From the NCBI RefSeq assembly GCF_001719045.1, contig NZ_CP015423.1, positions 3,815,501 through 3,879,500 on the forward strand: DNA of 64,000 nucleotides, in the 5' to 3' direction. This DNA comes from Paenibacillus polymyxa (GTDB lineage Bacteria > Bacillota > Bacilli > Paenibacillales > Paenibacillaceae). Below are positions 4,530-23,907 of the stretch, in pieces. Made by a program: the position numbers and the translations under genes. Numbering within the stretch: the stretch's first letter is position 1; each line of letters begins with the position of its first letter. The notes below the pieces were generated by a model. That model saw only the letters and a program-made list of their open reading frames with translations, did not search any database and was not told the DNA's origin.

Positions 4530-5737
4530 GCGAACATAAAGAAAATGTACCTAAATTAAGGTTTCCTGGATTTACTGATGCTTGGGAACATCGTAGGTTG
4601 GGGGAGCTATGTGATGAGTTCCAAAGTGGAAAGAATATCAAATCAGAGGATATTAGGGATGAAGGCAGATACCCTGTGTTTGGTGGTAATGGACTTCGCG
4701 GATGCACAAACACTTATAATCACGATGGATTATATGCACTTATCGGAAGGCAAGGTGCACTCTGCGGAAACATGAATATCTCCTATGGAAAAGCCTATTT
4801 TACGGAACATGCTATTGCTGTCAAAGGTAACAAAAACAACGAAACAAGGTTTTTATTTTATCTTTTAGGCGAGATGAATCTCGGTCAATATTCGGGTCAA
4901 TCTGCACAGCCGGGATTGGCAGTTAATAAACTTATAGCACTGTCTGCGTTTGTTCCCTCTTTTGCAGAACAAGCTCAAATCAGCGCATTCTTCAAACAAC
5001 TCGACCACCTCATCACCCTTCATCAGCGTAAGTTAAATAACGTAAAAAAATTGAAGGCTGGGTTGCTCCAAAAAATGTTTCCGAAAAATGGCGAAGATTT
5101 TCCCGAAATTCGTTTCCCTGGATTCACTGACGCTTGGAAACAGCGTAGGTTTGATTTGGTGTTTGACCCAATACCGAACAACTCTTTTTCAAGAGCAGAT
5201 TTAAACTATGACGAAGGCAAAATAAAGAGTGTCCATTACGGCGATATTCTCGTCAAATATGGTGCCGTTACTGATTGCCGCAAAGATGTGATACCGTTCA
5301 TTACAGGAGCTGAGGTCTCCGATCATCAGAGCCAACTTCTCCAAAACGGTGATGTGCTGATTGCCGATGCTGCCGAGGATAAAACGGTTGGCAAAGTTAC
5401 AGAAATAACAGGAATTATTGACATTCCTGTAGTATCAGGATTACACACTATAGCTTGCAGACCGAAGGTGAAAATGCAGCCCAACTATCTTGGATACTAT
5501 ATGAACTCACCATCATATTATCAACAATTATTACCGCTCATGCAGGGAATCAAGGTCCTTTCGCTAAGTAGGACGAATCTTGCCAAAACAATCATTTGCT
5601 TTCCGACTTCGGCGCAGGAACAGTCGCTAATTGGAAAAGTGTTTGCTAATGTCGACCACCTCATCACCCTTCATCAGCGTAAGCTAGAACACTTGCAAGA
5701 GCAGAAGAAAGCACTACTACAACAGATGTTTATCTAG
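4526..5737 (+). CDS. hsdS: Type I restriction-modification specificity subunit S
   Basis: A 403-residue DNA-recognition subunit with the classic two-fold layout. Each half starts with RFPGFTDAW (residues about 12 and 195) and ends with DHLITLHQRKL plus a lysine-rich helix finishing in QKMF or QQMF (about 160-190 and 376-403). The two variable target-recognition domains lie between and differ from each other, so the site should be bipartite. The linker repeat is identical over 32 bases in DNA (5001-5032 and 5652-5683). A GGAGAG ribosome-binding site lies in the end of the RhuM relic. The hsdM gene begins 15 bases downstream. Confidence 0.95.
   Translation: MSEHKENVPKLRFPGFTDAWEHRRLGELCDEFQSGKNIKSEDIRDEGRYPVFGGNGLRGCTNTYNHDGLYALIGRQGALCGNMNISYGKAYFTEHAIAVKGNKNNETRFLFYLLGEMNLGQYSGQSAQPGLAVNKLIALSAFVPSFAEQAQISAFFKQLDHLITLHQRKLNNVKKLKAGLLQKMFPKNGEDFPEIRFPGFTDAWKQRRFDLVFDPIPNNSFSRADLNYDEGKIKSVHYGDILVKYGAVTDCRKDVIPFITGAEVSDHQSQLLQNGDVLIADAAEDKTVGKVTEITGIIDIPVVSGLHTIACRPKVKMQPNYLGYYMNSPSYYQQLLPLMQGIKVLSLSRTNLAKTIICFPTSAQEQSLIGKVFANVDHLITLHQRKLEHLQEQKKALLQQMFI
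5001..5032 (+). repeat. 32-bp direct repeat inside hsdS, copy 1
   Basis: Identical to 5652-5683 and encodes DHLITLHQRK in both halves of HsdS. Such exact repeats at the two conserved regions are the usual places where S-gene halves are exchanged by recombination. Confidence 0.9.
5652..5683 (+). repeat. 32-bp direct repeat inside hsdS, copy 2
   Basis: Exact copy of 5001-5032, located at the end of the second recognition domain. Recombination between the two copies would delete the second target-recognition domain in frame. Confidence 0.9.
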
Positions 5738-5752
5738 GAGGAAAATAACAAT

Positions 5753-7351
5753 ATGAGCAATAATCTACAAACCATCACAACAAAACTGTGGGCGATGGCA
5801 AATGAGCTTCGTGGAAGCATGGATGCTGCAGAATATAAGAACTACATTTTAGCCTTTATGTTTTATCGTTACCTGTCAGAACATCAAGAACAGTACTTAG
5901 TTAAAAATAATGTTATTGATGTTGCCGTTGGTGAAACGATCAATAGTGCCTACTTAGAACAAGCGAATGGTGACGATTTGAATGATTACTTAGAAGATAT
6001 TTCTGCAAGTTTAGGCTATGCCATTGCACCGCTTGATACTTGGGAATCTTTAGTTCATAAGATTGATAATAGCATGGTGATTCCAAGTGATTATCAAACT
6101 ATTTTTGATAACTTCAATCGAAACGCTGAATTAAATAAAGAAGCTGCGAAAGATTTTCGTGGCGTATTTAACGACATTAATCTTGGAGACTCGCGTCTAG
6201 GCTCTTCTACCAATGAACGTGCAAAATCACTTAACCGAATTGTAAAGCTTGTTCATGGCATTGAATACAAGGGTGAAGATAACAAGGATATTCTTGGCGC
6301 AATCTATGAATACCTAATCGGTCAATTTGCAGCAAGTGCAGGTAAAAAAGGTGGAGAGTTCTACACACCCCATGAAGTGTCTAAAGTATTGGCTAAAATC
6401 GTAACGGACGGTGTAGAAGAATCGGAACATACTTTTTCGGTGTATGACCCGACTTGTGGATCTGGGTCATTGCTGTTAACGGTTCAAGGTGAGCTACCTG
6501 GTGGAAATAAACCCGGGGCGATTAAATTTTTTGGTCAAGAAAAGAATACGACAACATACAACTTGGCCCGTATGAATCTGATGATGCATGGTGTTTCATT
6601 TAATAACATAACTCTGTCTAATGCTGACACACTTGAAAGTGATTGGCCTGATGGACCAGATGCCCAAGGAACTGACCACCCACGCTCATTTGATGCCGTG
6701 GTTGCGAATCCTCCTTATTCTGCTCATTGGGACAATAGCGAAACGAAACTCAAAGATCCACGTTTTAGGGAATATGGTAAACTCGCTCCTAGAACTAAAG
6801 CGGATTATGCATTCATTTTACACAGCTTGTATCATTTGAATGATACTGGAACAATGGCGATTGTATTACCGCATGGTGTCTTGTTCCGTGGTGCAGCAGA
6901 AGGTGCGATTCGCCAAACGATCATTGAGAAAAACTACCTTGATACCGTTATAGGCTTACCTGCCAACTTGTTTTACGGCGTATCCATCCCAACTACGGTT
7001 TTAGTATTCAAGAAAAATCGTAAAACAAAAGACATCTTGTTTATCGATGCAAGCAATGAATTTGATAAAGGTAAAAATCAAAACAAACTTACTGATAAAA
7101 ACATCAATAAGATTATCGAAACGTACCGAAATCGTGTGGATGTTGATAAATATGCTCACGTGGCATCACTTGAAGAAATCAAAGAAAACGAGTTTAACTT
7201 AAATATTCCTCGCTACGTGGATACGTTTGAAGAAGAGCAAGTCATTGACCTTGCCGAAGTGAGTAAGCTTTTAGAACAAGATAAACAAGAAATCGCTGAA
7301 CTTGAAGCCAAAATCAATGAACAGCTGAAAATTTTGGGTATTCATGTGTAG
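5753..7351 (+). CDS. hsdM: Type I DNA methyltransferase subunit M (adenine-N6)
   Basis: A 532-residue modification subunit. The N-terminal helical domain is followed by the SAM-binding motif DPTCGSGS at residues 232-239 and the adenine-methylase motif NPPY at 319-322. An alpha-helical, charged C-terminus (from about 495, EVSKLLEQDKQEIAELEAKI) probably packs on HsdS. The start has AGGAGG 12 bases upstream. It is the last gene of the hsd cluster and is followed by a terminator. The order R-S-M with a half-S in front is less common than R-M-S. Confidence 0.96.
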   Translation: MSNNLQTITTKLWAMANELRGSMDAAEYKNYILAFMFYRYLSEHQEQYLVKNNVIDVAVGETINSAYLEQANGDDLNDYLEDISASLGYAIAPLDTWESLVHKIDNSMVIPSDYQTIFDNFNRNAELNKEAAKDFRGVFNDINLGDSRLGSSTNERAKSLNRIVKLVHGIEYKGEDNKDILGAIYEYLIGQFAASAGKKGGEFYTPHEVSKVLAKIVTDGVEESEHTFSVYDPTCGSGSLLLTVQGELPGGNKPGAIKFFGQEKNTTTYNLARMNLMMHGVSFNNITLSNADTLESDWPDGPDAQGTDHPRSFDAVVANPPYSAHWDNSETKLKDPRFREYGKLAPRTKADYAFILHSLYHLNDTGTMAIVLPHGVLFRGAAEGAIRQTIIEKNYLDTVIGLPANLFYGVSIPTTVLVFKKNRKTKDILFIDASNEFDKGKNQNKLTDKNINKIIETYRNRVDVDKYAHVASLEEIKENEFNLNIPRYVDTFEEEQVIDLAEVSKLLEQDKQEIAELEAKINEQLKILGIHV

Positions 7352-19518: not shown

Positions 19519-19935
19519 TTAATCCAGTTCCTGACCGTCATTTTCGATCTGTATGTGCCCGCAATAAAGACATTGATGCGTACAGTTCTGCGTAAGAGCA
19601 GGCTGGCCTTCGATGCGCATGTCGCTTTTTCCGTTCAACCAAGGCATCGTAAGGACTGGAATACACGGGGCCTTTTTCACTCCATAAATATCGACCATCT
19701 CACTGGCTTGCACAGCCGGATTCAGCGGACTGGAGCAATTCCCAAAAGATTTTATGTTCACACCAGGTACATAATCTCCAATATTCATCTGTGCTTTATT
19801 TTTAACATACACCCCGTGGCTAAAAGGGCGCTTCAAACGCGTAGGCTGTGTACCGTAACTACAGCTTAAAATCGCACCTGCCACGACATAGCTTTTTTTC
19901 GCACCTGTTCCAGGCTGCACACTTGCTTCTTCCAT
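19519..19935 (-). CDS. DUF4280 PAAR-like spike-tip protein
   Basis: A 138-residue protein of the DUF4280 family, proposed to form a PAAR-like sharpening tip on VgrG-type spikes. VVAGAILSCSYG near residue 18 and the two DNA-free glycine/proline blocks (YVPGVNIKSFGNCSSPLNP and VLTMPWLNGKSD) fit. The C-terminus holds CTHQCLYCGHIQI, a cysteine-rich segment that could bind metal. It is the last gene of a five-gene minus-strand operon, five bases after the Imm11-like gene. No extra toxin domain is fused to it. The family is recognised from pattern. Confidence 0.75.
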   Translation of the reverse strand: MEEASVQPGTGAKKSYVVAGAILSCSYGTQPTRLKRPFSHGVYVKNKAQMNIGDYVPGVNIKSFGNCSSPLNPAVQASEMVDIYGVKKAPCIPVLTMPWLNGKSDMRIEGQPALTQNCTHQCLYCGHIQIENDGQELD

Positions 19936-19940
19936 ACGGC

Positions 19941-20480
19941 TTATTCCTCCTTTGTGGCCATCTCCACTTTTTGCACACGAACACCTGTAAATGGACGACG
20001 CAGCAGACTTTCCGCTACCGCGAGATTGATATAGATATGTGCTTCCAACAAGCCGGCGATCCGAAATATAGACGGTTCGATTTTCTCGTACTTAAGTACC
20101 AGCTGCTTCAAGGTATGGTCGGGATACCACTCGGTTTGTGAGGAAAGACAGTCCACCACAGGTGGACGCAGTACCCAGTACACATCCTGCCTGGCTTGCT
20201 GAAAATCGGTAAGTATAGCGGCCTTCCATTCCAGCTCTGGCATGTATTTTTCCAACAGGGCTTTCATGGAGTCTGAAACCAGCGGCAAAGGGAACTCCAG
20301 AAAATCCGGATAGACGGTTCGTGGATCTGTATGTACTGCTAAAAATAGGGGAGTGTCCTCTGTCTGAATGGTATGACCCGAAAGGATATCTTCCACCTGC
20401 AAGGGAGCTAGGGGCGCAGTCTCCACCTGATGCTTTACGCGCTCGTCCACCATGAGTCGGTAATACCTCATGACATCCAC
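19941..20480 (-). CDS. Imm11-like (DUF1629-type) protein
   Basis: A 179-residue protein. The central and C-terminal pattern FPLPLVSDSMKALLEKY, DVYWVLRPPVVDCL, PSIFRIAGLLEAHIYINLAVAESLLRRPFTGVRVQKVE resembles the Imm11/DUF1629 family of proteins found beside polymorphic toxins and T6SS-like genes. In those loci it is often annotated as immunity. No matching toxin gene is visible here, so a structural or chaperone role is equally possible. Its start overlaps the pentapeptide gene by 13 bases, so the two are co-translated. Confidence 0.5.
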   Translation of the reverse strand: MDVMRYYRLMVDERVKHQVETAPLAPLQVEDILSGHTIQTEDTPLFLAVHTDPRTVYPDFLEFPLPLVSDSMKALLEKYMPELEWKAAILTDFQQARQDVYWVLRPPVVDCLSSQTEWYPDHTLKQLVLKYEKIEPSIFRIAGLLEAHIYINLAVAESLLRRPFTGVRVQKVEMATKEE

Positions 20481-21730
20481 TCCCCTTTACTCACTGCATC
20501 TGTTACCTGTGTAGCCAGTGGCGTTTCTACAGCAGCAAGGCCAATAGCTTGGCTTAGTTGGTCATCTGTAAAGATTACCCGGTGTAGTTTTGCTCCTGTA
20601 AAATTAGCTTTTACTAAACGTGCACCTATAAACGAAGCGTCAGTAACATCGGCTCCTATAAAGCAGGCACCTGTTAGATCCGCGCCGTTAAATAATGCTC
20701 TTTGCAGCGCGGCATCTTGGAAAGCAGCTCCTTGAAGCTGTGCATGTTGAAAACTAGCTCCCTGTAAATTAGCTCTTGTAAAATCCACTCCATCCAATCC
20801 TAACGGTTCCCAATCCAGCCAAGCATCCGATCCATATTCGCTATTGCTTATAACTTCGTCCAGTACAGCCTCTTGCAGGGAACAGCCACTGAAATCGGCT
20901 CCGTGAAGCAGGCTGTGCGAAAAGTCTGTTCCATCTAGCTGAGCTTCTCGCCATACTGTGCCTACGAGGATACAGTGATGCAATCGACTTTGTTGCATCC
21001 CGATCTGGCGAAAGACTGTATAGCGAAAATCCAAGGAGCTGTAATCTCCATCCGATAGTTGAACTTGAGACAGTGTTTGGTAGCTGTAGGCCGATTCTTC
21101 TTTTTCCTCCAGCCAAGACTTTATTATGTTTGCATCCATAGGTCTTCGATCTTCCCGGTACACGGAGACACTATGATCCATATACTCTCCGACGCGAATC
21201 TCAACAGCTTCTTCACGATCCAACGTCTCAAACTCTGGTAGGTCGACTGCTTGCTTCATAGCCTGACGAACCAGACTAACGATCATCGTATGAAGATATC
21301 CCGCTGCTTCCAGCATGATCTGTTCTAATTCAAGTTCGGAAAGGGAGACTTGCTGCTTCAAAGTTTCAGCCCCAAGCTGTTCACGTAATTGAGTCCAATA
21401 GAGAAAAATCCAACTTGCATCGTACTCCAACTGAACGGGCTCAGCATCAAGCATCCATAAGGCATCCGTAGCTTCAACAAGATAAACGGGCTTCTGTTCA
21501 AGCCATGTGGTGCGCAGCATAGAGTAGGTGATGTAACCAATATGACCTTTACGACCTGTGAGTTGTTTTTGCCGAACCAGCTCACAAAAGGCGCGAAAAT
21601 GTTCTACTATATGCTGTAATCTTTGTGTTTGTGTTGATTTACATTTCAACGCCCATTCTTTGCGAATGAAAGACCAAGCTTGATGAAGAGCCGCTTGTTG
21701 CTGATCTAACAGATCTGTTTGCTTTTCCAT
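20468..21730 (-). CDS. Pentapeptide-repeat protein of the spike operon
   Basis: A 420-residue protein. The first two thirds are mixed helical with no known motif. From about residue 250 a run of A(D/N)LXX-type pentapeptides forms a right-handed quadrilateral beta helix (LDGTDFSHSLLHGADFSG, then LDGVDFTRANLQGASFQ, GADLTGACFIGADVTDASF, ARLVKANFTGAKL), interrupted by a short insert near residues 290-305. Pentapeptide proteins recur in VgrG/DUF4280 clusters of Firmicutes. The helix may dock on or extend the spike. The gene starts 12 bases after the VgrG-like gene ends. Confidence 0.85.
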   Translation of the reverse strand: MEKQTDLLDQQQAALHQAWSFIRKEWALKCKSTQTQRLQHIVEHFRAFCELVRQKQLTGRKGHIGYITYSMLRTTWLEQKPVYLVEATDALWMLDAEPVQLEYDASWIFLYWTQLREQLGAETLKQQVSLSELELEQIMLEAAGYLHTMIVSLVRQAMKQAVDLPEFETLDREEAVEIRVGEYMDHSVSVYREDRRPMDANIIKSWLEEKEESAYSYQTLSQVQLSDGDYSSLDFRYTVFRQIGMQQSRLHHCILVGTVWREAQLDGTDFSHSLLHGADFSGCSLQEAVLDEVISNSEYGSDAWLDWEPLGLDGVDFTRANLQGASFQHAQLQGAAFQDAALQRALFNGADLTGACFIGADVTDASFIGARLVKANFTGAKLHRVIFTDDQLSQAIGLAAVETPLATQVTDAVSKGEWMS

Positions 21731-21742
21731 TTCTAATCATCC

Positions 21743-23158
21743 TTAATTTGACTTCACTTCGCTGCCTTTCATGTCTGCCGACCCACTTAATTCGATATGA
21801 CTGCCATTACAATCCATCCGGAGCTGACTACCTGCGGACAGACTCATCGTCTTCCCCGCAGATAGGCTGAGATTGCCTCCCGCCGTAATATTCACCTGTT
21901 TGCTGCTCGCAATATGAATGCCTTCTTTATCGTCCAGTTTGATATAAATAGCGCCGTCCTTACCTGTAACGACCAGTTCATCCGGTCCCAGTCGAATTTC
22001 CTTGCCATGCGGGGTACGCCATATTTTCATTTGCGGATTGGAAAAATGGTTATGCGTACTCTTGCGGTCTGCCCGTCTCACGGCACTACCTGCTACGCCG
22101 TCTTCTTCCCGACTACCGGGGAAATAGAGGGAAACTGAATCGCCTTTTTCTGGCATGACGTACCAACCGGTATGACCACCGCCACTGTACACGGTAGAAT
22201 AGTTGAACCAGTGTGCTTGGTTTGTGTCCTGTTGTTCATCACAATCCAGATGAATGCGCACTTGATCCTGACGTACGTCCAGCACAATACCGCTTAATGA
22301 AGCTCCTGCCAGCTTATCCTGGTAGTAGCTTTTTTGCCGAAATCCCTGGTAAGAACCTAACACATACTGATGCCGCAGCAGTCCTTGGCTCATGGCGGTG
22401 TAGGCTTCCATCACATACAGGTTATGCCCCTGAAAATTCAACTGAGCGCCCAAGTCGAGTACCTCATCCGTTTCTACCTCATAAAAAATAAAATCATGTT
22501 CACTCAGTTTGGTTTGTTCATTCTCCTGAAAATAACGAAAAGGTAGCAACTGCTTACGTACGGTATAACGGGTATGATCCAGTATCGCCTGTGCAGGACT
22601 GTCCTCAATACCAAAATAAAATTTGGGACTGTCAAAACGAGCTACAGGCATCAGACTTGTATGATAACGGGAGGCTATGCGTCTTAAAAATGCCCAGTCT
22701 GTCTCCTGATACTGAATGGCAAGCCGCCCGATGGCTTCTCCGCCAGTAGCCCCGTCGATCACATCCAGCCCTTCATAGTCCTTACCTATGTGCTCCAGCA
22801 TTTGAGGAATCGTCATTTTCGTATACTGAAAAGAACGAGTACGCTGCTTCATGTCCATCCGGTACGTATGGGAAATGGCTTCCACCTCCAGATAGTACAC
22901 ACCTCGCACGACTTTTACCTCAACTGAGAGGGCAATCCCACTAAATAGCGGCTTGCTTGCGCCAGATTCATCTTGTTGGCTGACTTCAATGATGGTATTT
23001 TTTTCTGTCGTTTCCACGTAACTGTCTTGCAAGTCTTCGGGGATAACACCTGTAAAATAAAGCCGAGTATGCTCGTTAACTTTTTTCGTTAAGGTGAGCT
23101 CTTCTAGATCCATTTGTTCATAAGGGTGAATTTGAATTTGATCGTATCCCAGACTCAT
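21743..23158 (-). CDS. VgrG-like contractile-injection spike protein
   Basis: A 471-residue protein with the full VgrG layout. A gp27-like base (about 1-270) carries the family block IQYQETDWAFLRRIASRYHTS. A gp5-like OB fold (about 285-370: SGIVLDVRQDQVRIHLDCDE, GWYVMPEKGDSVSLYFPG) follows. The C-terminal beta-prism shaft is built from short repeats (KQVNITAGGNLSLSAGKTMS, LSAGSQLRMDCNGSHIELSG). It is shorter than most T6SS VgrGs and has no effector extension. The ATG overlaps the upstream DcrB-related gene (ATGA). No sheath, tube, baseplate or ATPase gene is in this window. Confidence 0.88.
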   Translation of the reverse strand: MSLGYDQIQIHPYEQMDLEELTLTKKVNEHTRLYFTGVIPEDLQDSYVETTEKNTIIEVSQQDESGASKPLFSGIALSVEVKVVRGVYYLEVEAISHTYRMDMKQRTRSFQYTKMTIPQMLEHIGKDYEGLDVIDGATGGEAIGRLAIQYQETDWAFLRRIASRYHTSLMPVARFDSPKFYFGIEDSPAQAILDHTRYTVRKQLLPFRYFQENEQTKLSEHDFIFYEVETDEVLDLGAQLNFQGHNLYVMEAYTAMSQGLLRHQYVLGSYQGFRQKSYYQDKLAGASLSGIVLDVRQDQVRIHLDCDEQQDTNQAHWFNYSTVYSGGGHTGWYVMPEKGDSVSLYFPGSREEDGVAGSAVRRADRKSTHNHFSNPQMKIWRTPHGKEIRLGPDELVVTGKDGAIYIKLDDKEGIHIASSKQVNITAGGNLSLSAGKTMSLSAGSQLRMDCNGSHIELSGSADMKGSEVKSN

Positions 23159-23835
23159 GGTGTAGTCATTCCTTTCTCATTTATAGAATAGGCGGAGGGT
23201 GGAAGGACAGAAAGGGATTGAACCCAGTATTCTGCTACAGGTAACCAGACTTCGAGATCTGCCTCCAGACAGCTAAAGGAACCTATGACAACTCGTCCAT
23301 TGTGGATAAAGAGCAGCATTTCGTTGTATAGATTACCGTCGATCCCCGCCACCACAAAACGAATCTGTCCAACTGAAAGTCCGGAACAGTTGGTGACCAT
23401 TTCGGTACCTAACCAGTTGCGAATCGGTTGTACAGACCGTAGAATATCCGCCATTTGCTCTACAAAATTGGGCAGTTCTTCCGCTTCCAGAGCGGTATCT
23501 GTAGGATTAAAAGTGATATTGATGGTCTCCTCAGATGAGGTATAAATGACCTTTGGTCGATGCTCTGAAGGATATTTGATTATAGCTTGCTCCATTGGCA
23601 TAGGAGTAAAGGACTTGGGGATGTAGAAACCAATCTCTCCGTGTAGTATTGTAATGGGCTCCAACGTGAGATAATCATTTTCAACATGAAGTAGCTTTGT
23701 TTCTTCAAACATGGAACCGTCCTGTTCCGATTTCTGAGTTTGAGCTGGGATGGATTTCACATTATCGTTATTAGCTGTCTTCTGATCCACCATTTTAGCT
23801 TTGAGGCTAAGTATATGCTCGTCTAGATAGTTCAT
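23155..23835 (-). CDS. DcrB-related (DUF1795) protein, possible spike chaperone
   Basis: A 226-residue cytosolic protein. After a polar N-terminus of about 60 residues it shows GEIGFYIPKSFTPMPMEQAIIKYPSEHRPKVIYTS and VNITF-like strands (EETINITFNPTD). It ends with a domain containing VGQIRFVVAGIDGNLYNEMLLF. This pattern matches DcrB-related/DUF1795 proteins, which in type VI systems (Eag proteins) load PAAR effectors onto VgrG. AAGGGGG precedes the ATG. It is the first gene of the five-gene operon, four bases overlapping the spike gene. A chaperone role is inferred from family and position. Confidence 0.7.
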   Translation of the reverse strand: MNYLDEHILSLKAKMVDQKTANNDNVKSIPAQTQKSEQDGSMFEETKLLHVENDYLTLEPITILHGEIGFYIPKSFTPMPMEQAIIKYPSEHRPKVIYTSSEETINITFNPTDTALEAEELPNFVEQMADILRSVQPIRNWLGTEMVTNCSGLSVGQIRFVVAGIDGNLYNEMLLFIHNGRVVIGSFSCLEADLEVWLPVAEYWVQSLSVLPPSAYSINEKGMTTP

Positions 23836-23867
23836 AGAAAGCCCCCTTTTAGGAAAAATACGCGTTT

Positions 23868-23907
23868 GTACTTGAATATGTAAAGATGAGAGGAGATATT
23901 TAAGTAC
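23868..23907. promoter_or_regulatory. Inverted repeat upstream of the spike operon
   Basis: GTACTTGAATAT (23868-23879) and ATATTTAAGTAC (23896-23907) are complementary at 11 of 12 positions, with a 16-nt spacer. It lies 33-72 bases upstream of the first spike-operon gene and is a candidate operator for an unlinked regulator. Confidence 0.5.

Follow-up and report, generated by a model that had tools for sequence, protein, structure and literature searches.

A VgrG-DUF4280 spike operon of Paenibacillus polymyxa as the probable loading module of an unlinked type VI-like contractile system

Layout and family assignments of the spike operon

The genome of Paenibacillus polymyxa (assembly GCF_001719045.1, contig NZ_CP015423.1), a single chromosome of 5.76 Mb, was analysed over positions 3,815,501-3,879,500 (the window, 64,000 nucleotides in all). 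The window contains five minus-strand open reading frames (ORFs) encoding a spike protein, its tip and accessory proteins, and these genes most likely represent a spare tip set for an injector that resembles the type VI secretion system (T6SS) and is encoded elsewhere on the chromosome. By the window ORF calls they are spaced, in order of position, by a gap of 5 bases, an overlap of 13, a gap of 12 and an overlap of 4, which confirms the coordinates and tight packing given in an earlier reading of the same DNA (the original prediction). The features, in window coordinates, are:

19519..19935, minus strand: DUF4280 PAAR-like spike tip (138 amino acids (aa); Pfam, 9.9e-36)
19941..20480, minus strand: Imm11-like protein (179 aa; 23 of 34 family members match Imm11, best 9.9e-10)
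20468..21730, minus strand: pentapeptide-repeat protein, putative adaptor (420 aa; Pfam Pentapeptide, 4.8e-31)
21743..23158, minus strand: VgrG-like spike (471 aa; Pfam, NCBIfam and a profile against solved VgrG)
23155..23835, minus strand: DcrB-like (DUF1795/Eag-type) putative loading chaperone, first gene of the module (226 aa; family profile)
23855..23884, minus strand: possible sigma-70-type promoter ahead of the first gene, a weak lead (9 of 12 consensus matches)

The VgrG, DUF4280 and pentapeptide assignments are upheld directly by profile searches with the window proteins. The cysteines C25, C67, C91 and C122 of the DUF4280 protein are invariant across the five DUF4280 copies of the genome. 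The spike matches Phage_base_V above the Pfam cut-off (6.4e-6), and Phage_GPD (2.4e-5), DUF2345 (3.2e-4) and the NCBIfam model VgrG_rel (8.7e-12) under their cut-offs, while a profile of its 27-member family matches a solved VgrG at E 6e-16. It is 96% identical to its counterparts in Paenibacillus brasilensis KACC 13842 and Paenibacillus sp. BJ-4. The conserved N-terminal domain of the pentapeptide protein (about 200 aa) had no convincing match in Pfam or among PDB sequences.

The other two assignments hold through family profiles or family members and not through the window proteins alone, which gave no Pfam match for the DcrB-like protein and just a weak Imm43 match (0.095) for the Imm11-like one. 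Over about 150 of 217 positions, the 37-member DcrB-like profile matches the solved structures of DcrB (13cz, 2e-5) and of a protein with a DUF1795 domain (6e8a, 4.2e-5), and Pfam DcrB is matched by three of the 37 members. By this profile the window protein is assigned to the DcrB/DUF1795 family, as a putative loader of a PAAR effector on VgrG. The top PDB row of the same profile, 7q58 (3.4e-6), was disregarded, as it covers 23 residues with no stretch passing alone. The concern that profile searches would fail the VgrG, DUF1795 and DUF4280 assignments was thus not borne out.

Pfam searches of the five genes and five flanking ones, together with our own profiles run over the window ORFs, revealed no gene for a sheath, tube or baseplate in the window, in agreement with the original prediction. 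The promoter is no more than a lead because a promoter and terminator scan found fewer promoter-like sites in the region than in shuffled sequences (4 against a mean of 8.0).

Related modules and toxin-bearing VgrGs

A scan of named genomes for VgrG relatives gave 371 stretches, the best 80 of which were kept and make up 76 loci; module genes in these loci were called with our own family profiles. The five genes are consecutive and in the window's order in 51 of the 76, and the arrangement is therefore not due to chance. It had been proposed that collecting such operons might reveal a variable toxin gene at one end, and most relatives have one: the five genes are followed by a second VgrG in 41 of the 51 loci, by another gene in six, and by none on the strand in four, where the run stops at SelO (L094, L095) or at the end of the contig (L119, L159). 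The window module is without such a gene.

Of the 41 second VgrGs, 28 have a complete sequence of 650 aa or more. The first 150 residues of these 28 form one cluster and the last 150 form 22, a C-terminal variation that, as read from the sequences, is the pattern of polymorphic toxins. Second VgrGs in L135, L156, L160, L164, L166, L167 and L169 reach 1825-2064 aa, about twice the usual length, which suggests a class of very large C-terminal cargo. Directly ahead of the Lysinibacillus boronitolerans module lies a tube-family gene (L134:8560-8985), possibly for a module-specific or cargo-carrying tube.

The toxin-family scan covered the second VgrGs of the window's own genome, in which the other four DUF4280 copies belong to related gene sets (L006-L009). 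The modules L006, L007 and L008 finish with a VgrG whose C-terminal part is long. In L007 this part is a deaminase (PF14424, 5.6e-32) followed by Imm3 (4.6e-32); in L006 the toxin type is unsure (Ntox28 only at 0.031) and the next gene encodes CdiI_3 (1.9e-11); in L008 no family was matched. L009 encodes a 411-aa VgrG and, after it, a 573-aa protein carrying a WHH nuclease domain (6.4e-14), as well as a SUKH protein (1.2e-17). This last module (L009:26-7564) lies just upstream of the window at 3.81 Mb, next to a recombinase gene and structural genes of phage-like character, all recognised by eye, and may sit by a prophage remnant. A stand-alone VgrG gene at 3.772-3.776 Mb (L187:6367-9474), about 60 kb from the window operon, has a deaminase-like end and an Imm3-like neighbour (5645-6346), both by eye, and no tip or chaperone genes of its own beside it. 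At 1.21 Mb a 617-aa VgrG-like gene (L189:7524-9377) is followed by genes of 341, 161 and 174 aa.

A candidate firing machine and its association with VgrG

A non-phage sheath, a tube and a TssK-like gene, of the kinds that the original prediction proposed to look for in the whole genome, lie at about 1.300-1.318 Mb, clustered 2.5 Mb from the window operon and next to the L007 module. In chromosome coordinates, and from upstream to downstream, the cluster comprises:

1316939-1317850: kinase
1314784-1316895: VWA protein, on the strand opposite to the neighbouring machine genes
1312001-1314295: sheath, by fold
1311456-1312004: Hcp/TssD-like tube (TssD 0.0014, below the curated cut-off)
1310295-1310843: FHA membrane protein
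1309699-1310226: second FHA-like protein, named by eye
1308833-1309684: PP2C-like protein of 283 aa, named by eye
1306933-1308810: PP2C-TPR membrane protein
1305566-1306885: P439, no family found
1304880-1305575: P231, no family found
1302197-1304848: Hsp70-like protein (0.007, below the cut-off)
1301622-1302176: RDD-like protein, named by eye
1300620-1301390: P256, TssK-like protein of 256 aa, by fold

Beyond P256 follow the DcrB-like, VgrG, DUF4280, VgrG-deaminase and Imm3 genes of the L007 module. Judged by hydropathy, the FHA, PP2C, PP2C-TPR, VWA and RDD-like proteins probably have membrane helices, and the presence of FHA, kinase and phosphatase genes is reminiscent of T6SS regulation.

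The contractile sheath is encoded by a single gene (722-764 aa), its fold being read from a VIA-align comparison of a structure model, and P256 has a fold like that of the TssK baseplate protein; Francisella IglD is likewise TssK-like. Both assignments are by fold only, as sequence searches with the sheath, P439 and P256 returned no meaningful family; those with P231 and the pentapeptide N-terminal domain gave none either. In public annotation many sheath relatives are labelled 'transcriptional regulator' (L010:8002-10296), and relatives of the TssK-like protein often 'DNA and RNA helicase' (L007:11621-12391). A tube-family gene lies near the sheath gene in 39 of 40 sheath loci; in the fortieth (L077) the tube gene is truncated by the locus end, more than 1 kb from the sheath gene. 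Pfam TssD matches 14 of 18 tube-family members (best 3.2e-5), the window genome's own protein falling under the curated cut-off, and the best PDB match of the family is Hcp1 (E 0.0091). An Hcp-type inner tube, a VgrG/gp5-type spike and a PAAR-type tip accompany the sheath in this genome. VipB (PF05943) and TssE/gp25 (PF04965) had no match in the genome at E <= 1, although a divergent gp25 could escape this profile and TssB/VipA itself was not searched. None of the ten machine-locus proteins scanned belongs to a TssJLM-type family, the whole genome not having been searched with those profiles, and no ClpV was noticed by eye in the machine locus, no genome search for it having been made.

Machine genes (PP2C-TPR, P439, P231, Hsp70-like or P256, fragments included) share the locus in 24 of the 51 window-order cases. 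In two distant Bacillota genomes, whose sheaths are 28-29% identical, spike and Imm11-like genes directly adjoin those of the sheath and tube. One (L192) has the run DUF4280-containing protein (3.9e-5), Imm11-like, sheath, tube, VgrG, a 419-aa gene, P231, Hsp70-like and P256; the other (L194) has a 594-aa gene in the tip position, then Imm11-like, sheath, tube, VgrG, P439 and P231. The 419-aa and 594-aa genes had no match. With relatives directly before the sheath gene in both genomes, the Imm11-like protein is probably a component of the system.

Co-occurrence was analysed in 198 genomes of the order, the same set serving for DUF4280 (77 genomes), the non-phage sheath (34) and VgrG (41, comprising 34 at E <= 1e-108 and seven at 4e-7 to 2e-4). 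The 34 strong-VgrG genomes are exactly the 34 sheath genomes (34/0/0/164), and counting the seven weak ones the table becomes 34/7/0/157; the p value of this association is inflated by relatedness, and within the window's own genus the figures are 12 of 12 against 0 of 19. Across the phylum the non-phage sheath was found in 13 of 398 sampled genomes, from 11 genera, and relatives of the machine parts occur in Paenibacillus, Brevibacillus, Lysinibacillus, Aneurinibacillus, Sporosarcina and relatives. Firing by an unlinked contractile system, one of the options in the original prediction, is supported by the distant cluster and by the 34 of 34 co-occurrence, and export by another route is unnecessary.

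The phage-type sheath PF04984, used as a control, shows a weak association with VgrG, being slightly commoner in VgrG-positive genomes (31 of 34 against 120 of 164 others, p 0.026). Its sole match in the window's genome (4.137 Mb) lies in a PBSX-like prophage or tailocin at about 4.13-4.15 Mb (L188, 4129000-4148900), surrounded by tail-like genes recognised by eye and unlinked to the module. That this element fires the spike is nevertheless very improbable: the strong-VgrG genomes G053, G084 and G086 have no PF04984 match, 120 of the 164 genomes lacking this VgrG do have one, and the perfect co-occurrence and gene linkage belong to the non-phage sheath instead.

The 43 DUF4280-positive genomes without the sheath carry a different DUF4280 type, which bears on whether the module might belong to an extracellular contractile injection system (eCIS) using a DUF4280 tip. 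VgrG-free loci of this second type are found in many genomes of the order (L024-L053, L170-L186), with MORN-repeat-like neighbours in the loci that were read and, in L180, an eCIS-like sheath start, both by eye; they are probably eCIS loci. For the window module an eCIS origin is very improbable, since no Phage_T4_gp19 tube was found in the genome at E <= 0.1, and the 43 loci, seen with flanks of about 1.5 kb for 26 and mostly about 5 kb for 17, show no DcrB-like, VgrG, pentapeptide-N or Imm11-like match alongside. The eCIS explanation of the module was set aside, the DUF4280 genes of these 43 genomes having proved to belong to a different, VgrG-free type.

Role of the toxin-free window copy and relation to known systems

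The window module has neither a second VgrG nor an immunity gene, and the convergent SelO gene ends 104 bases from DUF4280. The modules of P. brasilensis and BJ-4 (L094, L095) occupy the same place between SDR and SelO (SDR 86% and SelO 88-89% identical to those of the window, which were identified by Pfam), and are likewise toxin-free. Compared with P. brasilensis, the ratio of nonsynonymous to synonymous substitution rates (dN/dS) is 0.03 for VgrG, 0.04 for DUF4280, 0.10 for the Imm11-like gene, 0.19 for the DcrB-like gene and 0.22 for the pentapeptide gene. The five genes are under purifying selection, and the module is therefore maintained. Decay of a prophage tail locus, which the original prediction had named as fatal to its reading, was rejected: the ORFs are intact, dN/dS is low and the gene order recurs, also at machine loci.

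These values also bear on the possibility that the machine is real and the window copy a functionless relic of toxin loss, to which the missing VgrG-toxin and immunity gene, the closeness of SelO and the split ORFs of the related P. farraposensis module (L104) could point. Five intact ORFs under constraint, and the same toxin-free state at the same place in two relatives, make a relic unlikely. Another reading takes the pentapeptide protein as the payload of this copy, with immunity provided by the Imm11-like protein; the module has no further cargo linked to it, the Imm11-like protein belongs to a family named for immunity, and the pentapeptide gene evolves, with the DcrB-like gene, fastest of the five. 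We consider this quite improbable, as the pentapeptide gene is present in the 41 modules that continue with a second VgrG, its product is cut down to the N-terminal domain in L008, and the Imm11-like gene stands directly before the sheath in L192 and L194 with no pentapeptide-N match nearby. Of the two roles first proposed for the pentapeptide protein, payload is thus disfavoured and adaptor is the likelier, because the gene accompanies modules already ending in a toxin-bearing VgrG. The window module would most likely serve as a source of spikes and adaptors, whether for unlinked VgrG-toxins or for tube-borne cargo.

The system resembles the T6SS in its sheath fold, Hcp/TssD-like tube, VgrG, DUF4280 tip, TssK-like protein, DcrB/DUF1795 chaperone and VgrG-fused toxins with immunity genes. 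It differs in its monoderm host, its single sheath gene, the absence of a VipB or gp25 profile match, a TssK-like protein of only 256 aa, and a membrane VWA/FHA/PP2C set with an Hsp70-like protein where no TssJLM-type family was seen among the scanned locus proteins. It would work like a T6SS; given the negative VipB family test and a membrane complex still to be proven, it is not filed as a canonical one. With the eCIS (Afp, PVC and Streptomyces CIS) it shares the sheath fold and spike, but its tube is of the TssD and not the gp19 type, it has a TssK-like protein, its toxins are fused to VgrG, and neither Phage_T4_gp19 nor Phage_sheath_1 was found at the machine locus.

In the non-canonical T6SS of Francisella, IglG is a DUF4280 protein (PMC5349215), and the same paper applied the term PAAR-like to DUF4280 and pointed out that it has Gram-positive carriers. 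For Firmicutes, the available part of PMC8651086 describes PAAR_H2 (DUF4280) genes next to VgrGs of the Phage_GPD type and identifies no machine for them, whereas here one is proposed by fold, linkage and co-occurrence. Excerpts of PMC10433429 list DUF1795, DUF4123 and DUF2169 as T6SS adaptors, and those of PMC3482391 include firmicutes among taxa with T6SS-type toxins; the accessible portions of PMC11566945, PMC12923769 and PMC12961389, on CIS and eCIS, contain no description of this machine. Among the matches listed in open-access PubMed Central no description of it was found, though a paywalled paper or preprint could exist.

The window operon is thus very probably the spike-loading module of an unlinked, chromosomal T6SS-like contractile system of Bacillota. 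From the computed parts, sheath and TssK-like folds, linkage, co-occurrence, C-terminal polymorphism and purifying selection we infer how its assembly, firing, anchoring, targets and pairing with unlinked toxins might proceed. The module would contribute chaperone, VgrG, two putative adaptors and PAAR-like tip, and the firing machine would consist of the single-gene sheath, Hcp/TssD-like tube, TssK-like baseplate protein, Hsp70-like protein, FHA, kinase and phosphatase components and membrane proteins. The DcrB-like chaperone and adaptors would place VgrG, either by itself or fused to a toxin, beneath the DUF4280 tip, and the loaded spike would dock on the TssK-like baseplate and tube. Contraction of the sheath would push it into a neighbouring cell, which the C-terminal toxin would poison while linked immunity genes shield kin. 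The window copy, which either lost its VgrG-toxin or was always without one, is most likely a source of spike parts for toxins encoded elsewhere, such as the stand-alone deaminase-like VgrG about 60 kb away.

With less assurance, though on balance in its favour, we suggest that Bacillota own a cell-anchored T6SS-like system of single-gene sheath, TssD-like tube and short TssK-like protein, with an FHA/PP2C/VWA/RDD anchor in a single membrane that is not related to the T6SS one. The machine would be under kinase-phosphatase control, sheath recycling possibly relying on an Hsp70-like ATPase in place of ClpV, and dispersed polymorphic VgrG-toxin modules would be fired into rival bacteria through Gram-positive walls, with the window operon as a toxin-free spare spike set that unlinked toxins would share.

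The T6SS has been described as a Gram-negative weapon, and a Gram-positive type VI-like injector had previously been guessed at without being pinned down. Candidate parts, hidden under the labels 'transcriptional regulator' and 'DNA and RNA helicase', can now be named, which makes the question directly testable by single gene deletions and raises that of how an injector of this kind could be anchored in a single membrane and get through thick walls.

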